A stretch of 33,413 nucleotides of DNA from a virus, in the IMG/VR virus record IMGVR_UViG_3300032325_000284, positions 1 through 33,413 of that record. The stretch is one strand, 5' to 3'. Below are positions 1 through 33,307 of the stretch, in pieces. Position 1 is the stretch's first letter, and the number at the start of each line of letters is the position of its first letter. Position numbers and translations under genes: made by a program. A model generated the notes under the pieces. That model was not told where the DNA came from and searched no databases. It saw nothing but the letters and a program-made list of their open reading frames with translations.

Positions 1-123
1 AGTTCTGATTGTCGCATTTCTCACAAGGGCTTTCCACACGCCAAACATTTCTCGCCCCCTCCACTCTCTTCGCCCTCTGGAATCGTGGCCTCCATCATCT
101 TGCCAATCTCATCCAAGCTGAAC
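1..123. repeat. Terminal direct repeat, left copy (contig closure)
   Basis: Bases 1-123 are identical to 33291-33413. The repeat covers the first codons of the terminase small subunit gene (1-17) and the 3' end of the ParB-domain gene. A short perfect overlap at contig ends is what an assembler leaves on a circular or circularly permuted molecule, so the unique length is 33,290 bp. A true short terminal repeat is possible but less likely, because the repeat runs through coding sequence. Confidence 0.95.
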
Positions 124-506
124 CCGGTAATATCAATGTCGATTTCCCCTGCGTCTAATTCTTCGAGGATGTCTTTGAGTTGTGGCATATCAAATTCACC
201 ACTCAATTTGTTGAGGGCAAGATTCGCCGCTTTTTCTTGTGCATCATCCAGCCACACCGCCCACACATCGACCTCATCTTTTCCAAGTGCCAAATAGCAC
301 TTTAGCCTTTGATGGCCTCCAACGATGTTCCCAGTTTTGGCGTTCCAAGTTATCGGTTGAAGATTCCCAAGTTCGCTCAAAGATTTTGTAAGCCTACCCA
401 ACGCATCCGAAGTGATGGTTCTCGGATTGTATTTTGCTGGCGAAAGTTCGCTAATTTTCTTTGTTACTAAAGAGGGATATTTCATAGGGTCTAAAAAGTT
501 ACGCAA
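21..506 (-). CDS. ParB/Srx-fold domain protein (phage ParB-like)
   Basis: A 161-residue protein from a TTG start at 506; an ATG at 485 gives a 154-residue alternative, and neither has a clear Shine-Dalgarno. Residues 17-100 match the ParB N-terminal fold: the NPR motif at 27-29, then GGHQR at 63-67 followed by a YLALG helix, the nucleotide-binding signature of ParB/Srx proteins. The tail carries a CxxC pair (C154, C157) after an acidic Gly/Glu linker. In phages such proteins sit near packaging or methylase genes and may bind or nick DNA. This one ends 3 bp before the terminase small subunit start across the circle junction, so it is probably co-transcribed with packaging. Its TTG start lies in a repeat-rich control region, which makes autoregulation possible (inference). 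No helix-turn-helix half of a classical partition ParB is visible and there is no ParA gene. Confidence 0.8.
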   Translation of the reverse strand: MRNFLDPMKYPSLVTKKISELSPAKYNPRTITSDALGRLTKSLSELGNLQPITWNAKTGNIVGGHQRLKCYLALGKDEVDVWAVWLDDAQEKAANLALNKLSGEFDMPQLKDILEELDAGEIDIDITGFSLDEIGKMMEATIPEGEESGGGEKCLACGKPL

Positions 507-528
507 GATTGTTTAACAATGTTTAACA
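497..528. promoter_or_regulatory. Repeat cluster at the ParB-gene start
   Basis: Two copies of the 9-mer TGTTTAACA lie at 510-518 and 520-528. The first sits in an 11-base palindrome, TTGTTTAACAA (509-519). Directly next to it, at 497-508, is AGTTACGCAAGA, a two-mismatch relative, in the opposite orientation, of the ACTTGCGTAAGT repeats found at 642-719. The cluster overlaps the TTG start of the ParB-domain gene, the right place for an operator or partition-type binding site. The binding protein is unknown. Confidence 0.5.
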
Positions 529-734
529 CAAAAATTTGCTAGGTTAATTCGTACAGAAAGTCGCCGGTCGGAACCTGTTTTGGGTGTATTTGGCAAAGTA
601 AAAGTTACCTAACTCGTTGATACCACGCACTATTGACCCTATCTTGCGTAAGTACCCTATAATCAACGACCCTACTTGCGTAAGTCGCATTTGTGCCTTG
701 TGTAAAAACTTGCGTAAGTTGCATATCACTTTTG
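529..734. promoter_or_regulatory. Non-coding control region with three spaced near-palindromes
   Basis: This is the longest stretch without a convincing gene. It holds three copies of a 12-bp near-palindrome: TCTTGCGTAAGT at 642-653 and ACTTGCGTAAGT at 674-685 and 708-719. The starts are 32 and 34 bp apart, about three helical turns. A further palindrome, AGTTACCTAACT, lies at 603-614. A 64-codon minus-strand frame (544-738) runs through the repeats and touches the upstream stop by ATGA, but its sequence is mostly repeat-encoded and I do not treat it as a gene. Possible roles are operators for the downstream packaging operon, a terminase/cos recognition region, or a partition site. The position just ahead of ParB and the terminase genes fits any of these. 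Confidence 0.5.
633..663 (+). promoter_or_regulatory. Possible plus-strand promoter within the repeats
   Basis: A TTGACC hexamer (633-638) and a perfect TATAAT (658-663) are separated by 19 bp, two more than optimal. It would fire rightwards, against every gene in the genome, towards the DUF3102-like gene. One near-palindromic repeat (642-653) lies between the hexamers, where a bound protein would block it. No plus-strand gene follows, so at most an antisense RNA would be made. Chance occurrence is quite possible. Confidence 0.25.
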
Positions 735-1208
735 TCATAGCTCTCCCCCTGCCTCCTTATAAGCCTCCACAATGGGGCGGGCTTCCTCAAGGAACTGGGT
801 ACGCTGGGCGGGTGTCCATTGGCTAGGGGTCTTGCGGGCAAGCCATTGGCGTGCCTTGATTATGTAGCTATGCCAAGCTTGCTCGGCCTTGGGATTAGAG
901 GTTTCGATGGGGTCGGGTAGCAAGCCAGTCCATAGGGCTAACTGCTTGAGGCCACCGGGGGTAGGGGCTTGCAGGGATGGCCTTGCCTTTGCCACACGCT
1001 CATACCGCCTAGCTTGCTCACCGTTTATTCCAGCTACCTCTTGGATGGTGTCTAGGTTTAGCCCCTCCACCCTTGCCGATAGGAGCAGATCGCCAGCGTC
1101 TGCCGCCAGTCCGATGGCCTCCCCCATCTGTTGTATGGCATTTTCCTTGGCCTTTTCTAACTGCTTGACTGTCTTTTGTAGCTCCATTCCGATCTGTTTT
1201 TCGCTCAT
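735..1208 (-). CDS. DUF3102-like putative DNA-binding protein
   Basis: A 157-residue protein starting at an ATG (1208) with AAAGGA nine bases upstream. Residues 1-75 are helical: a Lys/Glu/Gln-rich helix, an AGDLLLSAR segment, then a putative helix-turn-helix (DTIQEVAGINGEQARRYERV). This pattern matches the N-terminal part of DUF3102/partition-type proteins as I remember them. The C-terminal half has Trp-rich helices without a motif I know. It is the last gene before the control region and may bind there (inference only). Confidence 0.6.
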   Translation of the reverse strand: MSEKQIGMELQKTVKQLEKAKENAIQQMGEAIGLAADAGDLLLSARVEGLNLDTIQEVAGINGEQARRYERVAKARPSLQAPTPGGLKQLALWTGLLPDPIETSNPKAEQAWHSYIIKARQWLARKTPSQWTPAQRTQFLEEARPIVEAYKEAGGEL

Positions 1209-2050: not shown

Positions 2051-2601
2051 TGGATTTCTACTAATGCTGTCCGTCCCACCCTTGCCAATTCACGCTTTGC
2101 TTGCCGTTCTGTGGCATAGAAAAGGTCGATAACTGGGAGCTTGGTTTTGCCCGATGCCTTCCGTGAAATTACTGCCGTCCCGGTGTCGTGAGCGTGGTAT
2201 GCCTTGCCCTCAATCAATAGGGTCGTTCCGTAGGGGATAATTTTAGGGTCTACTGCACAAGATTTTCCAGAGACTAACCGTTTTCCAGTAGAGCTTTTAT
2301 AGCCAAACTCGTCCTCACCCAACCAGTATGCCGTGATACGAGCCTTGATTGTTTTCTTTGCTACTGGCTTTGGGGTTTCGATCATTATGTTGGCCGCTTG
2401 GCTCGAACATAAGAGCGTGATGGCTAGGATGATAATGGCTTTTTTCATCGTTAAGAAGTGGAGTCGCTCGCACAAATGGCGGTAGCGTCTTGAGGGTGAT
2501 TCGTCCCCTTTAGTTCTTTTCCCTTGATCGTTGTCAATCGGGGTCTTGAGCCTGTCGATCTCGGCCTCAATCTTATTTAATTCCATCTTATTGATTTTCA
2601 T
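2047..2601 (-). CDS. Exported 3D-domain (RlpA/MltA-like barrel) protein
   Basis: A 184-residue frame. Residues 52-70 (MKKAIIILAITLLCSSQAA) look like a signal peptide or anchor. They are preceded by a charged 51-residue N-terminal segment if the ATGA-coupled ATG at 2601 is used; an internal ATG at 2448 would give a conventional 133-residue exported protein but has no clear ribosome binding site. Residues 86-184 match the 3D domain, a double-psi barrel: ITAYW, then AVDPKIIPYGTTLLI (D118), HDTGTA (D139) and VIDLF (D159), the three Asp that name the family. Such domains occur in peptidoglycan-cleaving enzymes. Its place beside an early-region methyltransferase, away from the lysis genes, is odd. 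Confidence 0.7.
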   Translation of the reverse strand: MKINKMELNKIEAEIDRLKTPIDNDQGKRTKGDESPSRRYRHLCERLHFLTMKKAIIILAITLLCSSQAANIMIETPKPVAKKTIKARITAYWLGEDEFGYKSSTGKRLVSGKSCAVDPKIIPYGTTLLIEGKAYHAHDTGTAVISRKASGKTKLPVIDLFYATERQAKRELARVGRTALVEIQ

Positions 2602-3326
2602 AAAAGCTCTCTTATGCCTTTGATGATTTGGTATGCAACTTGCGGGACGATGGCGTTCCCAAGTCCTTTAATTCTGTCCATCCTATTGGGTATCCCATCA
2701 TCGCTTCTACAAATGTAGGGTGTGGACTTCCACCCTTGCCATTCTTTGAGAATTTCTCTGAAAGAACATCCCTCAACGATGTTTTGGGTTCGTTGTTTTT
2801 CCTTTTTGTCGATGGTTTTCTGCCATAGGTTTTGTCGCTTGCCGTTGGAGTTGGCAACAATCCAAATCCGTTCTCTCTTATGGACGGCATCGATGGATAA
2901 AGCTGATATATCAAATACCCTGACTTCATAATCAAAGGCTTCCAAATTAGTAATCGTTTCTTGCAATCCCAAATTGATGATTCCAGCAACATTTTCTCCA
3001 ATAATCCAAGCCGGGTTTGTTTCTTTGATAATCCTAAACATTTCTTGCCAGAGGTAACGGTCATCATCCTTGCCTCTTCGCTTCCCGGCAAAACTGAATG
3101 GCTGACAAGGAAAACCCCCTGTAAGTAAATCGATTCTTTGCCCCCCCCCCCGCAGTTCTCTGATGTCCGTGTGAATTGGGACTTGCGGCCAATGCTTTTT
3201 AAGAACGGCTTGGCAGTATGGTTCGATTTCACAGAATCCAATGGTTTCAAATCCAGCCCATCCAGCGGCAAGAGCGAATCCTCCGATTCCGCTGAACAAG
3301 TCGAGGTGGGTTGGTTTTTCATTCAC
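2598..3326 (-). CDS. DNA cytosine-5 methyltransferase
   Basis: A 242-residue enzyme that would transfer a methyl group from S-adenosylmethionine to C5 of cytosine, probably against host restriction. The C5 motifs appear in order: motif I DLFSGIGGF (9-17), motif IV GGFPCQPFS with catalytic Cys74, motif VI GENV (110-113), motif VIII KRERIW (150-155), and motif X GLGNAIVPQVA (221-231). The target recognition region between VIII and X is only about 65 residues, short for the family. The gene contains a run of 11 G (3141-3151) at codons 59-62, and a second same-strand frame (2612-3322) is open across almost the whole gene. It overlaps neighbours at both ends, ATGA at its stop. No cognate restriction enzyme is present, so it is an orphan enzyme. 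Confidence 0.92.
   Translation of the reverse strand: MNEKPTHLDLFSGIGGFALAAGWAGFETIGFCEIEPYCQAVLKKHWPQVPIHTDIRELRGGGQRIDLLTGGFPCQPFSFAGKRRGKDDDRYLWQEMFRIIKETNPAWIIGENVAGIINLGLQETITNLEAFDYEVRVFDISALSIDAVHKRERIWIVANSNGKRQNLWQKTIDKKEKQRTQNIVEGCSFREILKEWQGWKSTPYICRSDDGIPNRMDRIKGLGNAIVPQVAYQIIKGIRELL
3141..3151. repeat. Homopolymer G11 (minus strand) in the methyltransferase gene
   Basis: Eleven consecutive C on the plus strand, G on the coding strand, fall between motif I and motif IV of the methyltransferase (codons for Arg59-Gly62). A tract of this length is prone to slipped-strand change. Loss of one G would move translation into the +1 frame, which stays open to 2612. It is also a place where a sequencing or assembly error would be likely. 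Confidence 0.85.
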
Positions 3327-19494: not shown

Positions 19495-20169
19495 TCAATC
19501 CATAGTTATCATACCTTCAAAGCTGAAAATGTTGTCGGTTTCCCATTCATCTTTCTGCGGAAAGAAGCCAGTTTGCTTGTCTCTCCTAGTTGCCGAAGCA
19601 AGGATAATCGGGGTGCTATTGATTGCCCAAAAGTCCGTAGCCCCACGGATTGCCTTTGCCATCTGCTCAACTGATGGGGCGGTGTAGGTGCTTAACCCTT
19701 GAATCTTGATATCATCTGGACATAGCACAAAGAAGTTGTCTTTGCCCATAGTTTGCCTAGCCCTAACAATTAGTTCTAGTGGGTTTCGATAGTAGCCTTG
19801 AGATAGCCCAAATGGGGCAACTAGGTTGTAAGTTTCTGGAAGTCCCTCGGCTAGCTTATCATCTAGCTTATCTAGGACAATGTTGGTCTTGTCTGCGTCC
19901 TTAATCTCTGGATGGCTATATACAAAGTCAGTCCAGCTTCTCTTGCTTTTCCGATAAGCCTCGTACTGGTTCGGCCATACTTCCAAATCAATAACATCCC
20001 CCATCCTATGCCCAGCCTTCACATAGCTAGTCAGTTCAAAAACTCCGTGATATTGGGCGAAGCAATCAAAGAAAACTTCGTGGCCTTGGTCGGCTAAATG
20101 CTTGGCGGCTGGGAGGCAACGAAGCACATCCCCCAACCTCTGCGAGTATTTGATAGTTTTAACACTCAT
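19495..20169 (-). CDS. GT9/GT-B-like glycosyltransferase
   Basis: A 224-residue protein from ATG 20169 (ATG inside the upstream gene's end; a TTG six bases earlier is possible). The start RLGDVLRCLPAAKHLADQGH (about 11-30) is the N-terminal Rossmann signature of heptosyltransferase-type GT9 enzymes. Later VAPFGLSQGYYRNPLE and FWAINSTPIILASA (near 183-196) match the donor-side GT-B motifs. It is shorter than the usual 320-350 residues, mainly by a reduced N-terminal half. It may still be active with a trimmed acceptor domain. It is the last gene of the six-gene glycan cassette. Confidence 0.7.
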   Translation of the reverse strand: MSVKTIKYSQRLGDVLRCLPAAKHLADQGHEVFFDCFAQYHGVFELTSYVKAGHRMGDVIDLEVWPNQYEAYRKSKRSWTDFVYSHPEIKDADKTNIVLDKLDDKLAEGLPETYNLVAPFGLSQGYYRNPLELIVRARQTMGKDNFFVLCPDDIKIQGLSTYTAPSVEQMAKAIRGATDFWAINSTPIILASATRRDKQTGFFPQKDEWETDNIFSFEGMITMD

Positions 20170-20926
20170 CAACAACGCTCTTATCTGTTATGAATGGGAA
20201 ATAATCTCTCAACCGAACTGGGCTTGTGGTTTGTTGGAGCTTCTCCCATCCCTCAACCAGCCCATTATACCCATAGAAATCTTCTTTGAATTGTGCTTGC
20301 TCCTTTGTGGTATAGGCGAAGTGGTCAAAGGTTAGCCCCCAAGTTTCAGTCACGCCCCTTGGAATCATCATCGACTGGACATTGAGTTTGGGGGGTTCGT
20401 GGCTAACAAACTCAACTCCCCTGCCCCACTTCCAAGCCCTCAACCATTCGTACCAATGCGAAGCAAATCCTTCCCTAGTCACAACTTTTTTATTCTGCCC
20501 AACATAATAGTTACAATGGAACTGCATCGCTCGCCCCTCCTCGCATCCCTTGAGATGCCCAAAGATTGCGTCTAGCTGGTCGGCTCTCCATATCTCGTCA
20601 GCATCAATCTGCATCACAACCCCCTTCTCCACCCCTTTCAATGCCTCGCCAATCATCGCCAGCTTGCCGGGGAAAGGCTTTGCTTGCCAATAGACTGAAA
20701 CATTCTCGCCCCTAATGCTTTCAAGGTATTCGTGCGTTCCGTCCACGCTCACAAAGTTCTTGTGATACTTCTCTGGAACTTGCTTGCACCAGCGGGTGCA
20801 TCCCAGAGGCTCGGCCACTCCCTCGACAATCTTCCACTCCCAAGGAATCTTTAGCTTTTGAAACTCTGTTAGATGCCTCTGGATGTAAGGCATCCCATTG
20901 AGGACGATGGTAAAGATCGTCAGCAT
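20159..20926 (-). CDS. GT-A-type glycosyltransferase (GT2-like)
   Basis: A 255-residue protein. TIFTIVLNGMPYIQRHL (3-19) is a GT2-like N terminus, and VVMQIDADEIWRADQLDAIF contains the D-x-D metal and nucleotide-sugar motif (DAD, about 108-110). The Trp/His-rich C-terminal half (FASHWYEWLRAWKWGRG) would form the acceptor side. Transfer of a sugar from a nucleotide-sugar donor is expected; donor and acceptor are not predictable. It overlaps the methyltransferase upstream by 7 bp and the GT9-like gene downstream by 11 bp. Confidence 0.8.
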   Translation of the reverse strand: MLTIFTIVLNGMPYIQRHLTEFQKLKIPWEWKIVEGVAEPLGCTRWCKQVPEKYHKNFVSVDGTHEYLESIRGENVSVYWQAKPFPGKLAMIGEALKGVEKGVVMQIDADEIWRADQLDAIFGHLKGCEEGRAMQFHCNYYVGQNKKVVTREGFASHWYEWLRAWKWGRGVEFVSHEPPKLNVQSMMIPRGVTETWGLTFDHFAYTTKEQAQFKEDFYGYNGLVEGWEKLQQTTSPVRLRDYFPFITDKSVVDEC

Positions 20927-21432
20927 TTCAAGCGACCATAGATAACGCTAATCTCCGCACAAAAAGAAACTGAATCGTGCCGATAGCACTCAAAACCAAT
21001 CGAATCAAACCAATCAATAAACTCTTTTAGCCAAGCGTCTGAATAGTGTAACTCGATGGCAATTTCTTTTAGATTGTGGACATTCCCAATTTGCAGAAGT
21101 TGAGTCTCGTCTCCTTCGATGTCGCACTTAATGTGGGTGATAGAGTTCTCTGTTATCCAAGTATCCATTTGAAATGCGGAGTCTGCCTTTTCGCATAAGA
21201 ACTTTCCTTGCGGGTATTGTTGGGAAAGGGTGTTGATGTCTCCTTGGTTTATGTCCACTCCCATATAAAACTCTGGCTTTTGTGACAGAAAATACTTGGT
21301 TGTTCCGTTGGCCTCTTGCCTTTCTGATTCCGTCCAGAATCCACACCCCAAATCAAGCACCCTACCGCCAGCTACATTGAGATGTTGCCAATGGATTTCG
21401 GGTGATTCCGATGTGATGACTCCTTTAGTCAT
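20920..21432 (-). CDS. FkbM-type SAM-dependent methyltransferase
   Basis: A 170-residue protein. VLDLGCGFWTES (about 25-36) is the SAM-binding motif I, and FYMGVDINQGD supplies the acidic motif II residue. HIKCDIEGDE (near 98-107) matches the FkbM family 'KIDIEG(A/D)E', followed by an IAIELHY strand. FkbM enzymes usually O-methylate sugars or related hydroxyls. Placement among glycosyltransferases suggests methylation of the glycan they build. It is coupled to both neighbours. Confidence 0.8.
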   Translation of the reverse strand: MTKGVITSESPEIHWQHLNVAGGRVLDLGCGFWTESERQEANGTTKYFLSQKPEFYMGVDINQGDINTLSQQYPQGKFLCEKADSAFQMDTWITENSITHIKCDIEGDETQLLQIGNVHNLKEIAIELHYSDAWLKEFIDWFDSIGFECYRHDSVSFCAEISVIYGRLKC

Positions 21433-22037
21433 AGTTCAAATATGGCCGCACCATTACGCACCGACCAATCTTCCCAGAGCAGTTTCCCAAATCCCTTGAG
21501 CTTGTTGTAGTTCGCCAAGTTCTTAATGTCGTTCACATCGTCCAATGCGATGATTGCCTTCTCTGCTAGGAAGGGACGGACGCAACGCAACTCGGCCTCA
21601 CCAGAAAAAGGCGAGCCATCAATCAGCACGAAGTTAAAATCTACATTATGCTCAAAGTGAATGTCCTCGATTGCGTTGGTGCTGTAAGGTTGAGCAAATT
21701 CTACACATTCGTGATACCAGCCGAGAACTTGCTCTAGGGGATATTGATTAAGGGTGGTTTTATTTGTGCCGTAAAACTCCGCTACATCCAACTGGTTCAT
21801 CCATAGTTTCGGGAGGGTTGCAGTTCCCTTGACCGAAACGCCTCCCCTTGCGGATAGGTTCATCGAATGCCTACCGATGCGGTCTGGGTGATTCTCAATG
21901 CTGAATAGCCTTTTTGTCCTAATACATTGAGTCGAGCCATCCCCAGTTCCTCCCCCGATTTCTAGGCCAACATCCAGCCCCTCGCTATATTTTGCAAGGG
22001 CTTTCCCAAATGAATCGTTAATCGTTATCTCTTGCAT
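21429..22037 (-). CDS. SAM-dependent methyltransferase-like protein
   Basis: A 202-residue class I methyltransferase fold: LEIGGGTGDGST (25-36) as motif I, an RLFSIENHPDRIG strand-loop with the acidic residue, and FVLIDGSPFSGEAELRCVRP (near 136-155) followed by AIIALDDVNDI. It resembles the Methyltransf_24-type proteins found in glycan clusters. AGGAG nine bases before ATG supports the start. It is likely the second sugar-modifying methylase of the cassette. Confidence 0.75.
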   Translation of the reverse strand: MQEITINDSFGKALAKYSEGLDVGLEIGGGTGDGSTQCIRTKRLFSIENHPDRIGRHSMNLSARGGVSVKGTATLPKLWMNQLDVAEFYGTNKTTLNQYPLEQVLGWYHECVEFAQPYSTNAIEDIHFEHNVDFNFVLIDGSPFSGEAELRCVRPFLAEKAIIALDDVNDIKNLANYNKLKGFGKLLWEDWSVRNGAAIFEL

Positions 22038-22249
22038 TTCAATTTCTCCTCTAAAGCCTTACGAATCACATAGGCAATCACCGCCTCTTTATCGTGCTTC
22101 AATGCGAGCATCCCAGCTTTGTATAAATCTTTCTCGGCTTTATCATCATAGCTCACATCCACCTCAACCATCGGAGGAACTGGTCGAGCTTCGCCAAAGC
22201 GAATGATTCCAGATTTACGATTGCCAGTTTTGGCTTTTGCGTTTTTCAT
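22025..22249 (-). CDS. Small charged protein within the glycan cassette
   Basis: A 74-residue protein from ATG 22249 (GAAGGG upstream) rather than the longer frame from 22270. A basic N terminus (KNAKAKTGNRKSG) is followed by a Pro/Val stretch (ARPVPPMVEVDVSYDD) and a helix (EAVIAYVIRKALEEKLKCKR). I do not recognise it. It overlaps the large glycosyltransferase gene by 35 bp and the methyltransferase by 13 bp, so it belongs to the cassette. It may be a partner, scaffold or regulator. Confidence 0.55.
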   Translation of the reverse strand: MKNAKAKTGNRKSGIIRFGEARPVPPMVEVDVSYDDKAEKDLYKAGMLALKHDKEAVIAYVIRKALEEKLKCKR

Positions 22250-23870
22250 AGATCGCTTTTCCCTTCTCATAAAATTCTGGCTTGTTGTGGTTCTTTAATT
22301 GTTCGTCTGGTTGCCCGCCAGTAAATAAAGGGTTGTCGTGTTTGAATTGGATATGTCTAGCCTCAACCACGGCTTGTTCTGCATAGGCTCTATCCGTGAA
22401 TTCATTATCCGAATAAATGCCGTCCGACTCTTGGTAGTCGGGGTGGAATAGATGCCCCTGCTTCTTGAGCCTAGATTGCGTCAGGATCGCCATACAGAGG
22501 AGCTTGTCTTGCCGTAGGCCGTCTGATACTGCCAGCACTTTCTCTTGCGTTGTGTCCCCAATAGCATTCGAAATTAGGGCATCCCAATGGCGGGGGGGTG
22601 TCCAATCATCGCTCATTTGAATAATAATATCGCCTTTGGCTATTTTTGCCCCTGCGTTCCAAGCGTTAATCATCCCGCCCGGATTGCACCTAATGGCTTG
22701 GTGGGGGGTGTAATCTGTGGGGTCGTTATGATCGACCATAAACAACCACTCAATTTCTAGGGGCTTCTGGGCTAAAGAAAGCCACATCCACCGCCTCTGC
22801 CAAGCAATCTGTGGTCTGCCCCTTGTTGCGTGAACGATGCTGATCTTGGGGGCTGGTCGCATCTTCTTAATCTTTTCAGCCTCGGCAGTTTCTCCAACGC
22901 ACACCGATGCCGTCTCGTACAAGTCCATCGCTTGCCAGTTGTAGATCGCTTCAACAAGATTCCAATAGTGAGCTTTGGGGCGATGCAGGGTCAGACAAGA
23001 ACGAACTGCCCCATAAGCCTTAATCCAGCTTCCCTTGCCAGACCAATGATTTGCTATATAGAAATAAGCCTCTCGCCTATCGGGTTGTAGGGCTACGGCT
23101 TGCCCAAGATAAGAAAGCCTCTCGTTTTCTGGAACTACCCTACCCAAGTTGCAAAGCACATCGTAGCGAAGCGTGTCCTCTAGCTCTGGGAAGGCCAACG
23201 CTCGCATACTTGAATCAATGCACTTTTCAATCTGCCCAGATAGAAAATACTCTTGGGCTTGGTAGTAAAGGGAGTTGGCGGCTGGGGCAAGCGTGTCGGC
23301 CAAGATGTTCAAGTTCCTCTCCGCACTCCTTGGCTTGTATCCGTGAGGCTTGTGGATTCGGAAAATCTTATCCACGCCAATCGTCTTGTTTGGCTCTTTG
23401 CAAACCAGCATTTCGTGAACTCGGTTCTTCCAGCTACAAGTGCCTTTCTTGGAGATTTCTTCTCGAAGGGGAATGAGGCCAGCGTTGTCCACATTGTACT
23501 TTAACGCCACTAGGTGAGCGTCCTTTTGAATGGCAAGGTCAATAGCCTCCTCGACAACCTTCGCCCCATCCTCTGCCATTACATCGTCAGCATCTACCCA
23601 TAAGCACCACTCGCTTGAGCAAGCCTCAAGAGCCGTGTTCCTTGCCGTGGCAAAATCGTCTATGTGATTCCAATCAGTTCTTTTATTCTTATAATGAACG
23701 ATCTTCGCTCCAAGCCCACTTGCAATTTCCTCGGTCTTATCTGGCGTAGCTGACCCCCTAGAAATACATACAACCATCTCTTTTGCGATGGGGACAAACG
23801 ACTTGAGGCAACGCTCAATATATTCTTCTTCATTACCAGCGATGAGATAGACTGAAATAGGATATTTCAC
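22215..23870 (-). CDS. Two-domain glycosyltransferase with TPR-like linker
   Basis: A 551-residue protein with two GT-A-like units. Unit 1 (1-180): SVYLIAGNEEEYIERCLKSF start and WVDADD (91-96) as D-x-D. Residues about 195-330 are helical repeats of TPR type (YYQAQEYFLSGQIEKCIDSS, YFYIANHWSGKGSWIKAYGA). Unit 2 (342-520): KISIVHATRGRPQIAWQRRW, then NAWNAGAKIAKGDIIIQMSD with SDD at 420-422. The first half resembles tandem-TPR GT2 enzymes of bacterial glycan clusters; the second is a further GT2-like domain. One chain may add two sugars or polymerise. It heads the cassette after a 59-bp gap. Confidence 0.85.
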   Translation of the reverse strand: MKYPISVYLIAGNEEEYIERCLKSFVPIAKEMVVCISRGSATPDKTEEIASGLGAKIVHYKNKRTDWNHIDDFATARNTALEACSSEWCLWVDADDVMAEDGAKVVEEAIDLAIQKDAHLVALKYNVDNAGLIPLREEISKKGTCSWKNRVHEMLVCKEPNKTIGVDKIFRIHKPHGYKPRSAERNLNILADTLAPAANSLYYQAQEYFLSGQIEKCIDSSMRALAFPELEDTLRYDVLCNLGRVVPENERLSYLGQAVALQPDRREAYFYIANHWSGKGSWIKAYGAVRSCLTLHRPKAHYWNLVEAIYNWQAMDLYETASVCVGETAEAEKIKKMRPAPKISIVHATRGRPQIAWQRRWMWLSLAQKPLEIEWLFMVDHNDPTDYTPHQAIRCNPGGMINAWNAGAKIAKGDIIIQMSDDWTPPRHWDALISNAIGDTTQEKVLAVSDGLRQDKLLCMAILTQSRLKKQGHLFHPDYQESDGIYSDNEFTDRAYAEQAVVEARHIQFKHDNPLFTGGQPDEQLKNHNKPEFYEKGKAIYEKRKSQNWQS

Positions 23871-30328: not shown

Positions 30329-30561
30329 GAGCCGAAGTTTGCGTAGGTTGTGCGAACCCTAGTACCAGTCGCTTGCTGAATGGCTAGAGTTAGCTCCATA
30401 ATCGTATCTCTCACCTCACCGAGATTCGCTCTTGAAAACGAACGACCAGCTATCGAATAGCTTGAACCCGCCACCGCTATCGCCTCAAGACAAGTGATAT
30501 ACTTATCACGAAGAGAAGTTAAGGTGGCAAGGGGTAGCCCAATGAAATCACCCTTCGCCAT
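30325..30561 (-). CDS. Head-tail connector protein (lambda gpW-like)
   Basis: A 78-residue protein from ATG 30561; a GTG at 30573 would add four residues. LATLTSLRDKYITCLEAIAV, a GSSYSIAGRSFSRANLGEVR hairpin and a following IMELTLAI helix are the gpW pattern: helix, hairpin, helix. gpW sits under the portal and forms the site for tail joining. It lies between terminase and portal as in lambda, with short overlaps on both sides. Confidence 0.82.
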   Translation of the reverse strand: MAKGDFIGLPLATLTSLRDKYITCLEAIAVAGSSYSIAGRSFSRANLGEVRDTIMELTLAIQQATGTRVRTTYANFGS

Positions 30562-32338
30562 TATCAAACTCACTTTCTGTCAAACTTGCGGGGGAGACTT
30601 TCAACCGTCCATATAAGGCCGCACCCACAATGTTCATACACTCGCAATCCATTAAATGATTATGCTTTCCGACTTGCTTCCATACAAGCCTTTCCCTTCC
30701 AGTCATAGGGTTTTTAACCCGCACCTTAACCTCTGCCTCAATATGCACCCTCCAAACATCGGGGGTGTCGAGGGCGATGTAGCCGGGTTCTTTAATTAGG
30801 TTAGATAGGATGTCTTTGATGGATGGGTTCGACCACCGCCAGACTGGGCAGAACTTCCACTTCCACCCCGCCCTCGATTGAACTGCCTTACCGCTGAATG
30901 GGTCGCCATTGGCAATTCGAGCGTAAGGGCGTTGTAGTTTTTGCTCCCCCACAATTTCAGAGAAGCTAGTGCGATCTGAACCGACCAACGCCATCCAGCC
31001 GTTCTTACAACAATTATAATAAACATCTCTGGTTTGATCGCCCGAATCGCAGAAAACGCACTTCGACTCAACGCCAAACTCCTCTGCCTTGGCTTGGATG
31101 TCTCCCCAAGTCTCAAGCCTACCAGCCCACACAAGCCTCGATCTGCCCTCAATGTCCCAAGCCCGAACAACGCACCAAGCGTGGAAGCCCCCCGCCTCTT
31201 GAATATCACAAGCCATAATCAGCTTCTCGTTCACTCTGACCTCGCCCATCTTGTAATCGCCAGCCACAATCTCCATCTTCTCGCTTTCGTGTTCCATCCA
31301 AGGCTCGGCTAGAACTCGGTTCACGAAATCTTGTAGCCCTATGATTCCATTGTGTTTGTCTTGCAGAAACTTCACCGCCAAACTTCCGAAGGATACCCAA
31401 GGGGCATAGAGGCCATTGAGATGATAGGAGCGTCTGGCTGGTTCGCCTTTTAGGTTGGTTGCCCTCCACTCGCCCTCTCGAAGCATCTTGGTTTTCTGTC
31501 CGTCTGTAATCTTTTCTTTGCACCCCTCGCACTCGTAATAGGTCGAGGATTTAACCAGCTTAAAATCATAAACCCCATCCTCAATCTTGGCCGCCTCGTC
31601 CCACTTCACTTGCCCCCAAACTAGCTTCTGCTTATGCCCACAATGAGGACAGGGCACAAAGTAAAAACGCATATCGCCCTTCTGCCATTCACTCCAAATA
31701 ATTGAGTCGGCAGTTGTCGGGGTGCTGGTCGCTATGATGAGATGGTTTGGATAGGTGCTTACTCGTGCCTCTGCTAATTGAACTGGGTTGGCCTCTCGCC
31801 CCGACCCCGCTTGTTCTGGGAACTTGTCCACCTCATCCATACAGAGCAACGCAATCGAGCGACTAGAAAGAGCCGATGGGCTTGTGCCAGCCCACCAGAC
31901 CGAGCATCGTTTGAAGTGTTGCTCTAGGATTTTTATTTTGTCGGTATTGTCTGGCTTTTCTTTTGCTAGGGCTGGGCAATCGTCAATCATTGGCAACCAC
32001 CTAGTTTCTGTGAATGATCTAGCCAAATGCTCGCTAGGCATCACCCACAAGGCAGGGCAAGGTCGCTCCGCTATTCGATACGCTAGGCCAGCTAGAATCG
32101 TTGTGGTCTTGCTTGTTTGTGCCCCCCATACCAGCACCACCCTACGAATTGAATCATCGCCAAAAGCCTCTAGGGGTTCACGGACATAGGGCGTAAGTGT
32201 TGTTGAGTACGCACCGGGTATGTTCGTAACTCTTGCCGAAAGGGTTAGGTTTTTCTCTGCCCATTCTGGGATTGAGAGTTGTTCCCTTGGCTCAAACAAT
32301 AGACGAGCGAAGTTCTTGGCCTCATCAATCTGGTTCAT
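30548..32338 (-). CDS. Terminase large subunit (GpA family)
   Basis: A 596-residue packaging motor and nuclease. The ATPase has GAQTSKTTT (72-80) as Walker A variant, ALLCMDEVDKF (163-173) as Walker B, and ATSTPT (203-208) as coupling motif. A zinc-binding insert holds C230-x2-C233 and C270-x2-C273. The nuclease has ACDIQ (D378), FCDSGDQ (D431) and HLMDCE (D564). This gene layout is the lambda GpA family, which usually acts with a cos-type end. It is coupled to the HNH gene by ATGA. Confidence 0.95.
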   Translation of the reverse strand: MNQIDEAKNFARLLFEPREQLSIPEWAEKNLTLSARVTNIPGAYSTTLTPYVREPLEAFGDDSIRRVVLVWGAQTSKTTTILAGLAYRIAERPCPALWVMPSEHLARSFTETRWLPMIDDCPALAKEKPDNTDKIKILEQHFKRCSVWWAGTSPSALSSRSIALLCMDEVDKFPEQAGSGREANPVQLAEARVSTYPNHLIIATSTPTTADSIIWSEWQKGDMRFYFVPCPHCGHKQKLVWGQVKWDEAAKIEDGVYDFKLVKSSTYYECEGCKEKITDGQKTKMLREGEWRATNLKGEPARRSYHLNGLYAPWVSFGSLAVKFLQDKHNGIIGLQDFVNRVLAEPWMEHESEKMEIVAGDYKMGEVRVNEKLIMACDIQEAGGFHAWCVVRAWDIEGRSRLVWAGRLETWGDIQAKAEEFGVESKCVFCDSGDQTRDVYYNCCKNGWMALVGSDRTSFSEIVGEQKLQRPYARIANGDPFSGKAVQSRAGWKWKFCPVWRWSNPSIKDILSNLIKEPGYIALDTPDVWRVHIEAEVKVRVKNPMTGRERLVWKQVGKHNHLMDCECMNIVGAALYGRLKVSPASLTESEFDNGEG

Positions 32339-32640
32339 CTCTTAACCAGATAATCTTTTGCATACGCCCAAGCTGGGTTCATGTGGATTTGATGATGGCA
32401 CTCAAAGCACACCGCCAAGAAAAACTCTACCTCGTTCAGCCTATCCCCGAACCTTCCTCGCCTATGGTGAACTTGGCTTGCCATCTTGCAACGGCACACT
32501 TGGCAAACTGGGTTGTTGGTTAGAAACTTCTCTCGCACATCTTTATAAACTTCGTTCTGGCCTTTTCTCTTTGCAGATACTCGGCGTAGTTTCCCGCCTC
32601 GCTTGAGTGGGGTTTTTCGTTTAAGTGGAGAGCGTTTCAT
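32335..32640 (-). CDS. HNH endonuclease, terminase-associated
   Basis: A 101-residue protein. The N-terminal 30 residues are very basic (KRSPLKRKTPLKRGGKLRRV). The HNH fold has CQVC and CRCK on the first side, VHHRRG as the catalytic His pair, and CFECHHQIHMNP with the second zinc knuckle. HNH proteins beside terminase assist cos cleavage in HK97-like phages. The gene sits between the two terminase genes and overlaps both neighbours by ATGA. Confidence 0.85.
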   Translation of the reverse strand: MKRSPLKRKTPLKRGGKLRRVSAKRKGQNEVYKDVREKFLTNNPVCQVCRCKMASQVHHRRGRFGDRLNEVEFFLAVCFECHHQIHMNPAWAYAKDYLVKR

Positions 32641-32711
32641 CGGTCAAAGAATGGAAGCACTATGCCAAGGATTGCGATTGCTACTAGCAAAACAATAAAG
32701 CACTCGTTCAT
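32637..32711 (-). CDS. 24-residue membrane microprotein in the packaging operon
   Basis: ATG at 32711, TGA at 32637. The peptide MNECFIVLLVAIAILGIVLP continues FFDR, a single membrane segment. Its ATG overlaps the terminase small subunit stop (ATGA), and its stop overlaps the HNH start (ATGA). The double coupling makes it unlikely to be a chance frame, although it fits no known family. Confidence 0.65.
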   Translation of the reverse strand: MNECFIVLLVAIAILGIVLPFFDR

Positions 32712-33307
32712 TTGAATGCTCCCTCTGCTTTCTGAATGGTAACAAAGATTTGGTCGATGCCCTCTTGAATAGCCCTTTTAGCACATTCTGGGTCGCTAGG
32801 GTTTGCTCTTGCGGCCAAGCTCGAAGGCATAGCGTCCATTAGGTTTCTAATTGCTCCCAGCCATTTGCCGAACACTTCTCGCACCTCGTCCATTCTCACT
32901 AGCACTCTGGTTACTTCCTCGAATCGGGCGTGTTCCATTTCTGCCTCTGCGACTCTTTTTTTTGCTTCGCCCCATCCTTGAACTGCCGATCTCATTGCTA
33001 CTGGGTTTTTGTTTGTCGCCGCCGTAGCTACCAATGAGTAGGCAACTACCTCGGCTTGCTTCGCTCGATTCAATCTGCCAAGCGAGCTTGTCGATTTGTA
33101 TGACTCTGCATCCAATTCCTTCGATGGCTCGGAGAAGTTCGGAGATGGTGCTTGGATTAGCAGTTGCTTTCTTCCTACCCTCTTTTGGTTTGCGATCTTC
33201 CAGCTTTGAGCCTCTGCCTCGCTTGTGAGGGGCATACCCGCCTTTACTAGCTTGTTTATAGCCGCCCCAGATATTCCCCATAGTTTTGCCAGTTCTGATT
33301 GTCGCAT
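32708..33307 (-). CDS. Terminase small subunit (Nu1-like)
   Basis: A 199-residue protein. Residues 1-25 (RQSELAKLWGISGAAINKLV then KAGMPL) form the winged helix-turn-helix with the 'GMPL' turn typical of Nu1-like subunits, which bind the packaging site. Residues 78-135 are a helical oligomerisation part (RLNRAKQAEVVAYSLVATAA, AEMEHARFEEVTRVLVRMDE), and the end binds the large subunit in relatives. Its first 17 bases are repeated at window positions 1-17 by contig closure. A slightly longer shadow frame starts at 33338. Confidence 0.85.
   Translation of the reverse strand: MRQSELAKLWGISGAAINKLVKAGMPLTSEAEAQSWKIANQKRVGRKQLLIQAPSPNFSEPSKELDAESYKSTSSLGRLNRAKQAEVVAYSLVATAATNKNPVAMRSAVQGWGEAKKRVAEAEMEHARFEEVTRVLVRMDEVREVFGKWLGAIRNLMDAMPSSLAARANPSDPECAKRAIQEGIDQIFVTIQKAEGAFK

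Follow-up and report, generated by a model that had tools for sequence, protein, structure and literature searches.

Background

The closest described counterparts of the locus reported here are the cos sites of phages lambda and 21, which are built as cosQ-cosN-cosB and handled by the gpNu1/gpA terminase. In the available text of PMC4669245, the small terminase subunit (TerS) bound at cosB positions the nicks, the helix-turn-helix (HTH) types of TerS correspond to sites lying on the side of cosN where TerS is encoded, the spacing between cosN and cosB is fixed, and the far (right) half of the overhang varies freely. The lambda cosB has the R sites R3, R2 and R1, the first two separated by an IHF site, and cosQ is a short conserved element ahead of cosN that termination requires. 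Phage N15 needs a single essential R3 near cosN, with a remote rR2 inside terS, and its cohesive ends vary between relatives. HK97 is also a cos phage and has an HNH protein beside its terminase. As far as the accessible part of PMC10370121 goes, the TerS ring of HK97 reads DNA by a substructure at the tunnel exit.

The window studied here, meaning the whole stretch of DNA analysed (33,413 bases), comes from a circularly closed virus record of about 33,290 bp and has an identical 123-bp overlap at both ends, so the window's own ends are not physical genome ends. Its main genes all lie on the minus strand. A first-pass annotation had described a repeat-rich control region directly ahead of genes for ParB, TerS and an HNH protein. 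The repeats are genuine, with every named motif found in place; the three genes do adjoin the region, on the minus strand, and are followed by the large terminase subunit (TerL). We read the region as the cos site of a tailed phage that packages by the cos mechanism and has a large terminase of lambda type, and the tandem repeat array as a separate element, at a probability of roughly 0.9.

Mapping of the genome ends

A search of IMG/VR with ParB as the query gave 132 related places, of which 80 were kept, while the last gene of the right end gave 72 loci. Among 51 linear contigs beginning within 136 nt upstream of ParB, 39 start exactly with GGTTCC. From the other side, 28 contigs stop near or before the same point: nine end 9 nt past the GGTTCC start, ten end 10 nt past it, one ends at 12 nt, one after GGTT and seven elsewhere. 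The common point is thus missed by 12 of the 51 left ends and 9 of the 28 right ends; these counts are of contigs, some of them near duplicates, and not of independent phages. Three complete linear relatives (G012, G013 and G014) start with GGTTCC and have terminal repeats of 10, 9 and 10 nt. Unique ends with short extensions, as in cos-type packaging, are therefore seen both in contig ends and in terminal repeats of 9-10 nt. The extensions are presumably single-stranded, and probably of 5' polarity, since the overhang sequence is present on both ends, as after fill-in of 5' ends.

The ends fall inside the interval marked in the first-pass annotation (Table 1). The repeats, for which a single operator set had been one proposal, instead lie on either side of the point where the phage chromosome physically ends, and their supposed equal helical phasing does not hold, as spacings of 32 and 34 bp amount to 3.05 and 3.24 turns at 10.5 bp. 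TerL has both a GpA ATPase domain and a nuclease domain above cut-off (216.8 bits for PF05876 and 60.5 bits for PF20454), as expected of a lambda-type terminase. The overhang, at 9 or 10 nt and beginning GGTTCC, differs in length and sequence from lambda's 12 nt, and is distinct from the 12-base 5' ends, showing clear identity to lambda's, of the lambda-like phages covered in the accessible text of PMC4669245.

Table 1. Features of the cos region and adjoining genes in the window
Feature	Position	Strand	Evidence or remark
ParB N-terminal-domain-like protein, first gene of left end	21..485	-	phrog_620 1.3e-41
Left ACTTGCGTAAGT-type copy, inverted, 2 mismatches, just upstream of ParB	497..508	-	
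Second TGTTTAACA, additional half-site another 10 bp along	510..518	.	only in the window's TerS type
Dyad arm 2 of the window's TerS type, TGTTTAACA (GTTAAAC on - strand)	520..528	.	class A; TerS association; arm covariation in other classes
Dyad arm 1, ATTAAC	543..548	-	27 nt from 5' nick
Open frame, 64 codons, from the ATGA overlap with the upstream gene across cosN	544..738	-	
cosN, 9-nt probable 5' cohesive end GGTTCCGAC (- strand reading)	567..575	-	contig ends and terminal repeats
Left chromosome end (start)	575		
Right chromosome end (stop)	567		
cosQ-like element TTAGGTAACTTTTAC (other allele TTAGGAGACTCCTA)	598..612	-	position kept upstream of nick
Palindrome AGTTACCTAACT of the first-pass annotation	603-614		overlaps one allele of the cosQ-like element
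ACTTGCGTAAGT-type site TCTTGCGTAAGT, copy nearest cosN on right end	642..653	.	
ACTTGCGTAAGT site	674..685	.	
ACTTGCGTAAGT site	708..719	.	
157-aa gene, last of right end	735..1208	-	no family match
TerL, GpA type	30548..32338	-	PF05876 4.9e-64, PF20454 2.1e-16
HNH endonuclease-like protein	32335..32640	-	phrog_740 2.7e-9
TerS	32708..33307	-	phrog_57 2.8e-11
TerS N-terminal HTH	about 33236-33304	-	HTH helices in predicted model

Of 50 distinct right flanks, 49 have a TAGGAG/TAGGTA element whose start lies 35 or 36 nt upstream of the nick. From this conserved position we call it cosQ-like, and it may take the place of cosQ. On the gene strand the order would then be the last gene, the ACTTACGCAAGT array, the cosQ-like element, cosN, the cosB dyad, ParB, TerS, HNH and TerL, with the direction of packaging presumed throughout.

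TerL has 223 related stretches in IMG/VR, no relative in a genome collection of 84,980 species, and only matches below 60% identity in a phage collection. With no relative of TerL in the genome collection, a strictly lytic life is possible for these phages. Contig ends alone served to fix the genome ends exactly and to locate a packaging signal, although neither an isolate nor a host of the group was found.

A putative cosB dyad

On the terminase side of cosN, 64 of 65 left ends carry a dyad of the form GTTXYZ-N14-Z'Y'X'AAC at +27 or +28 from the nick; in the remaining one (L148) GGTTCC is absent and the dyad is anchored at +24, so that all 65 left ends are anchored. The two arms covary. Of 11 distinct arm pairs, 10 are complementary at position X, where all four base pairs occur (shuffle mean 2.83; none of 20,000 shuffles reaches 10), and all 11 are complementary at position Y (shuffle mean 7.72, p 0.018). 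Position Z pairs in 4 of the 11 arm pairs vs a shuffle mean of 3.65, no better than chance. Pairing is 0.85 in register, against 0.15-0.44 when one arm is slid by 1-5. The window's own type, class A, was excluded from the shuffle test because its register differs: it fits the N14 form poorly and needs N15, that is ATTAAC, a 15-nt spacer and then the TGTTTAACA pair.

We read the dyad as cosB, a putative TerS site. The arm centres lie 20 bp apart, about two turns of the helix, a spacing that would suit a dimer of HTH proteins. In lambda-type cosB the sites on the terS side are recognised by the TerS HTH, and covariation here, between the arms and with the TerS type, points to the same relation. 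The compact N14 dyad stands in place of R3-IHF-R2-R1: three R sites and an IHF site between R3 and R2 are replaced by one dyad with a 14-15 bp spacer, plus a half-site in class A. The layout resembles N15 in having a single compact TerS site near cosN and cohesive ends that vary between relatives, although the site is here an inverted pair rather than a single R3 with a remote rR2. With lambda and 21 it shares a GpA-type TerL, 5' cohesive ends (probable here), a fixed cosN-to-cosB spacing, a variable right half of the overhang, and a correspondence between the HTH type of TerS and the sites next to cosN towards terS (the shared features of spacing, overhang and matching being those of the available part of PMC4669245). 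Unlike in lambda and 21, a ParB gene lies between cosB and terS, and overhang length is polymorphic. HK97 is similar in that it uses cos and its HNH protein adjoins the terminase, and different in how its TerS reads DNA, an N-terminal HTH being implied here. As a mechanism, TerS would sit with its N-terminal HTH on the dyad, at a distance of 18 nt from the nick in the bottom strand, and the dyad-bound TerS would anchor TerL, which would nick in staggered fashion to leave 5' ends of 9 or 10 nt.

Overhang length at a constant nick distance

Overhang length follows the position of the dyad in the left ends, with 10-nt overhangs where the dyad is at +28 and 9-nt overhangs where it is at +27. For five of six overhang sequences, all left ends with that prefix agree (groups of 3, 6, 20, 13 and 1); GGTTCCGAG, the remaining sequence, is ambiguous, and one contig with a 12-nt end (L158) was excluded from this comparison. 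Overhang length therefore equals the dyad offset minus 18, meaning that the distance from the dyad to the bottom nick is constant at 18 while the overhang varies. For the window, an offset of 27 minus 18 gives an overhang of 9. The lambda findings in the accessible text of PMC4669245 agree with a constant nick distance. A one-base polymorphism in overhang length at constant dyad-to-nick distance amounts to a natural version of a cosN-cosB spacing experiment.

TerS type tracks dyad type

The 90 nt between cosN and ParB fall into sequence classes. For classes A, B and C (D and E were left out), divergence between classes minus divergence within classes was compared along the locus in 45 distinct loci. 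The difference is 0.235 in the left end, 0.009-0.066 in ParB (offsets 120-480), and 0.27, 0.22, 0.35, 0.17 and 0.13 in the first part of TerS; it is about 0 in HNH and most of TerL, and up to 0.05 again at offsets 2,700-2,820, where the alignment runs out. Because the class definitions came from the left end, the comparison is informative only in TerS and ParB. On these sequences the left end and the TerS N-terminus go together, and the intervening ParB gene does not segregate with them. When every class is included, in 111 loci, many of them overlapping and reducing to 45 distinct combinations, there are 15 TerS helix variants, each found with a single arm pair. The predicted model of TerS has a pTM of 0.38, and a fold search with it gave no match at E <= 0.001.

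One of these types resembles KorA of IncP plasmids. The accessible part of PMC2680271 gives the KorA operator as GTTTAGCTAAAC, and that of PMC4889941 gives the base contacts of the KorA helix as T47, R48, G49 and Q53, within the segment GLTRGAVSQ, which was confirmed against an annotated KorA. Class D TerS has the helix GLT[K/R]GAISQ, with T47, [K/R]48, G49 and Q53 all matched, and its arms are GTTTAG and CTCAAC, so that the half-site GTTTAG is matched too. The two differ in that KorA half-sites are adjacent while those of the phage dyad are 14 bp apart, and TerS has no sign of the KorA C-terminal domain. Pfam KORA matches are weak (7 of 18 TerS sequences, best 0.0019), and the best score of 18.8 bits is below the cut-off of 26.7. 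Sequence searches of the PDB with TerS returned no KorA, the best weak match in some of them being a Cro protein, and a plasmid search with the class D HTH gave nothing of note. That matching contact residues meet a matching half-site in an otherwise unrelated protein supports a helix-to-site code, with descent not proven and the shared length short. The KorA-like type is a candidate for packaging specificity taken from a repressor, with convergence at least as likely. On exchange of TerS and cosB, a search of the openly licensed PubMed Central text listed no paper besides those cited here.

We offer tentatively, and at less than even odds, a wider picture: the packaging signal and the TerS recognition helix would be swapped, or would evolve, together and in matching form, with the unlinked ParB gene lying between them. 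A single phage lineage would then contain about a dozen packaging types, one of them with a KorA helix and half-site whose specificity may be borrowed from, or convergent on, a repressor, and the cut site would be crossed by a frame that is kept open but not conserved in sequence (see below). The matched helix-and-dyad types, together with the overhang-length polymorphism, are the interesting part of this cos site. The matched types form a naturally occurring catalogue in which 15 TerS helix variants go with 12 dyad arm pairs, vs few (lambda, 21, N15) in the available text of PMC4669245, so that a terminase helix-to-site code becomes testable with purified proteins.

The ACTTGCGTAAGT array

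Sites matching ACTTRCGYAAGT with at most one mismatch occur four times in the window, three of them in this region, vs 0.13 expected (none of 100 shuffles reaches 4). In 18 records with a cos site there are 22 such sites in 6,480 bp around cos vs 9 in 656,158 bp elsewhere, an enrichment of about 248-fold; three further records without cos were set aside, and the motif, being taken from the window, favours close relatives. Seven of the 18 have no site near cos. The left copy is kept in most TerS classes and missing in L103/L129/L052. For ParB, ATG485 is the more likely start than TTG506, judging from relatives that keep the ATG, and this start would put the left copy just upstream of the gene.

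The first-pass annotation's proposal of a cosB/terminase-binding region stands for the region, with genome ends in it and the TGTTTAACA pair forming part of a dyad specific to TerS type; it is not supported for the ACTTGCGTAAGT array. That the array itself is the TerS site is very improbable. Its tandem sites, 67-144 bp from cosN, do resemble the lambda R sites in number and spacing (lambda layout from the accessible part of PMC4669245), but several TerS helix types share one and the same array sequence, and relatives of a single type (arm GTTAAC) differ in their number of sites, with 3, 2, 1, 0 and 0 in L120, L187, L028, L217 and L116. The array is moreover absent from G014-G016, where the right end is only 63-68 nt and TerL is 90-95% identical; some other relatives also have short right ends, of only 62-92 nt. 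A further suggestion, that the repeats are the target of the ParB domain, finds no support, since ParB hardly differs between relatives that have the array and those that lack it: 91-95% identical in G002-G004, which have three sites, and 93% in G013 and 88% in G016, which have no site with at most one mismatch near cos. ParB (154 aa) has a weak N-terminal-domain match in Pfam, with PF02195 below cut-off, and neither sites that follow ParB type nor a DNA-binding domain of ParB's own, the marks of a ParB/parS centromere, were found.

Most likely the array is a separate protein-binding array, probably one that governs transcription across cos into the packaging genes. We give about an even chance to the reading in which a regulator of the late transcript, running across cos into ParB-TerS-TerL, uses the array together with the left copy as its operators or activator sites. 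Because the genes run one way, the packaging genes must be reached across cos, and both the enrichment near cos and the copy ahead of ParB in most TerS classes agree with such control; yet a scan of the coding (minus) strand at 400-900, limited to the sigma70 type, found no sigma70-like promoter, some relatives do without the array, and when gene content was compared across 20 relatives, none of the window's genes was missing in exactly those without the array, so that the correlation gave no binder. The sites flank cosN on both sides in opposite orientation, and HNH adjoins TerL, as might be expected if the array had an accessory part in packaging and were recognised by a different protein of that module, HNH for example. 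We consider this rather unlikely, as several relatives with HNH 90-93% identical have no array. Replication iterons are a quite doubtful reading: the repeats are direct and in the same orientation, with a fourth, degenerate TTACACAAG copy seen by eye between the first two on the minus strand, but cumulative GC skew has no extremum at cos (although one-way genes confound skew), and the array is dispensable in relatives. The late-transcript reading is thus the one we prefer for the array.

Divergent relatives G022 and L204 have many ACTTAC half-sites in the array's place. In another divergent branch (the right ends of L210-L215), A-tracts every 11-12 bp or so, found by eye, replace the array, possibly as curved DNA.

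An open frame across cosN

The frame listed in Table 1 spans the cut site, and its counterpart is open through cosN in 38 of 40 distinct right ends with the ATGA overlap (57 regions examined), the exceptions being L159 and L203. For closer analysis 29 of the 40 were chosen, the 11 left out including L159 and L203 with their stops, regions of a length not divisible by three, and short right ends. All 29 chosen regions are open in that frame, vs 0 of 29 and 2 of 29 in the other frames. In the 162-nt group, which has at least 109 substitutions, the chance of no stop is 1.75e-3, and when columns are shuffled an average of 8.06 of 18 sequences acquire a stop, so chance is a poor alternative. Protein coding was rejected as the reason for the openness, with pN/pS of 0.93 vs 0.13 in the upstream gene and no codon-position bias. 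The frame could be translated into a product of no importance, or it could encode a small, fast-changing protein that is expressed from circular DNA alone; either would fit. No paper with phrases for a frame or gene spanning cos, or for overhang length in metagenomic contigs, was found in the CC0/CC BY/CC BY-SA text of PubMed Central.

Other variable segments

ParB is preceded by other sequence in L107-L110, L139, L143 and L149, apparently an extra gene between cos and ParB, and the distance from cos to TerS in G003 agrees with this. Away from cos, a DNA cytosine-methyltransferase-like gene (2598-3326, minus strand; named by eye) occupies a variable slot, with a full-length match at 96% identity in one of 20 relatives and partial matches in three. 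A cluster of glycosyltransferase- and methyltransferase-like genes, also named by eye, lies at 19495-23870, and some of its genes are missing in relatives.
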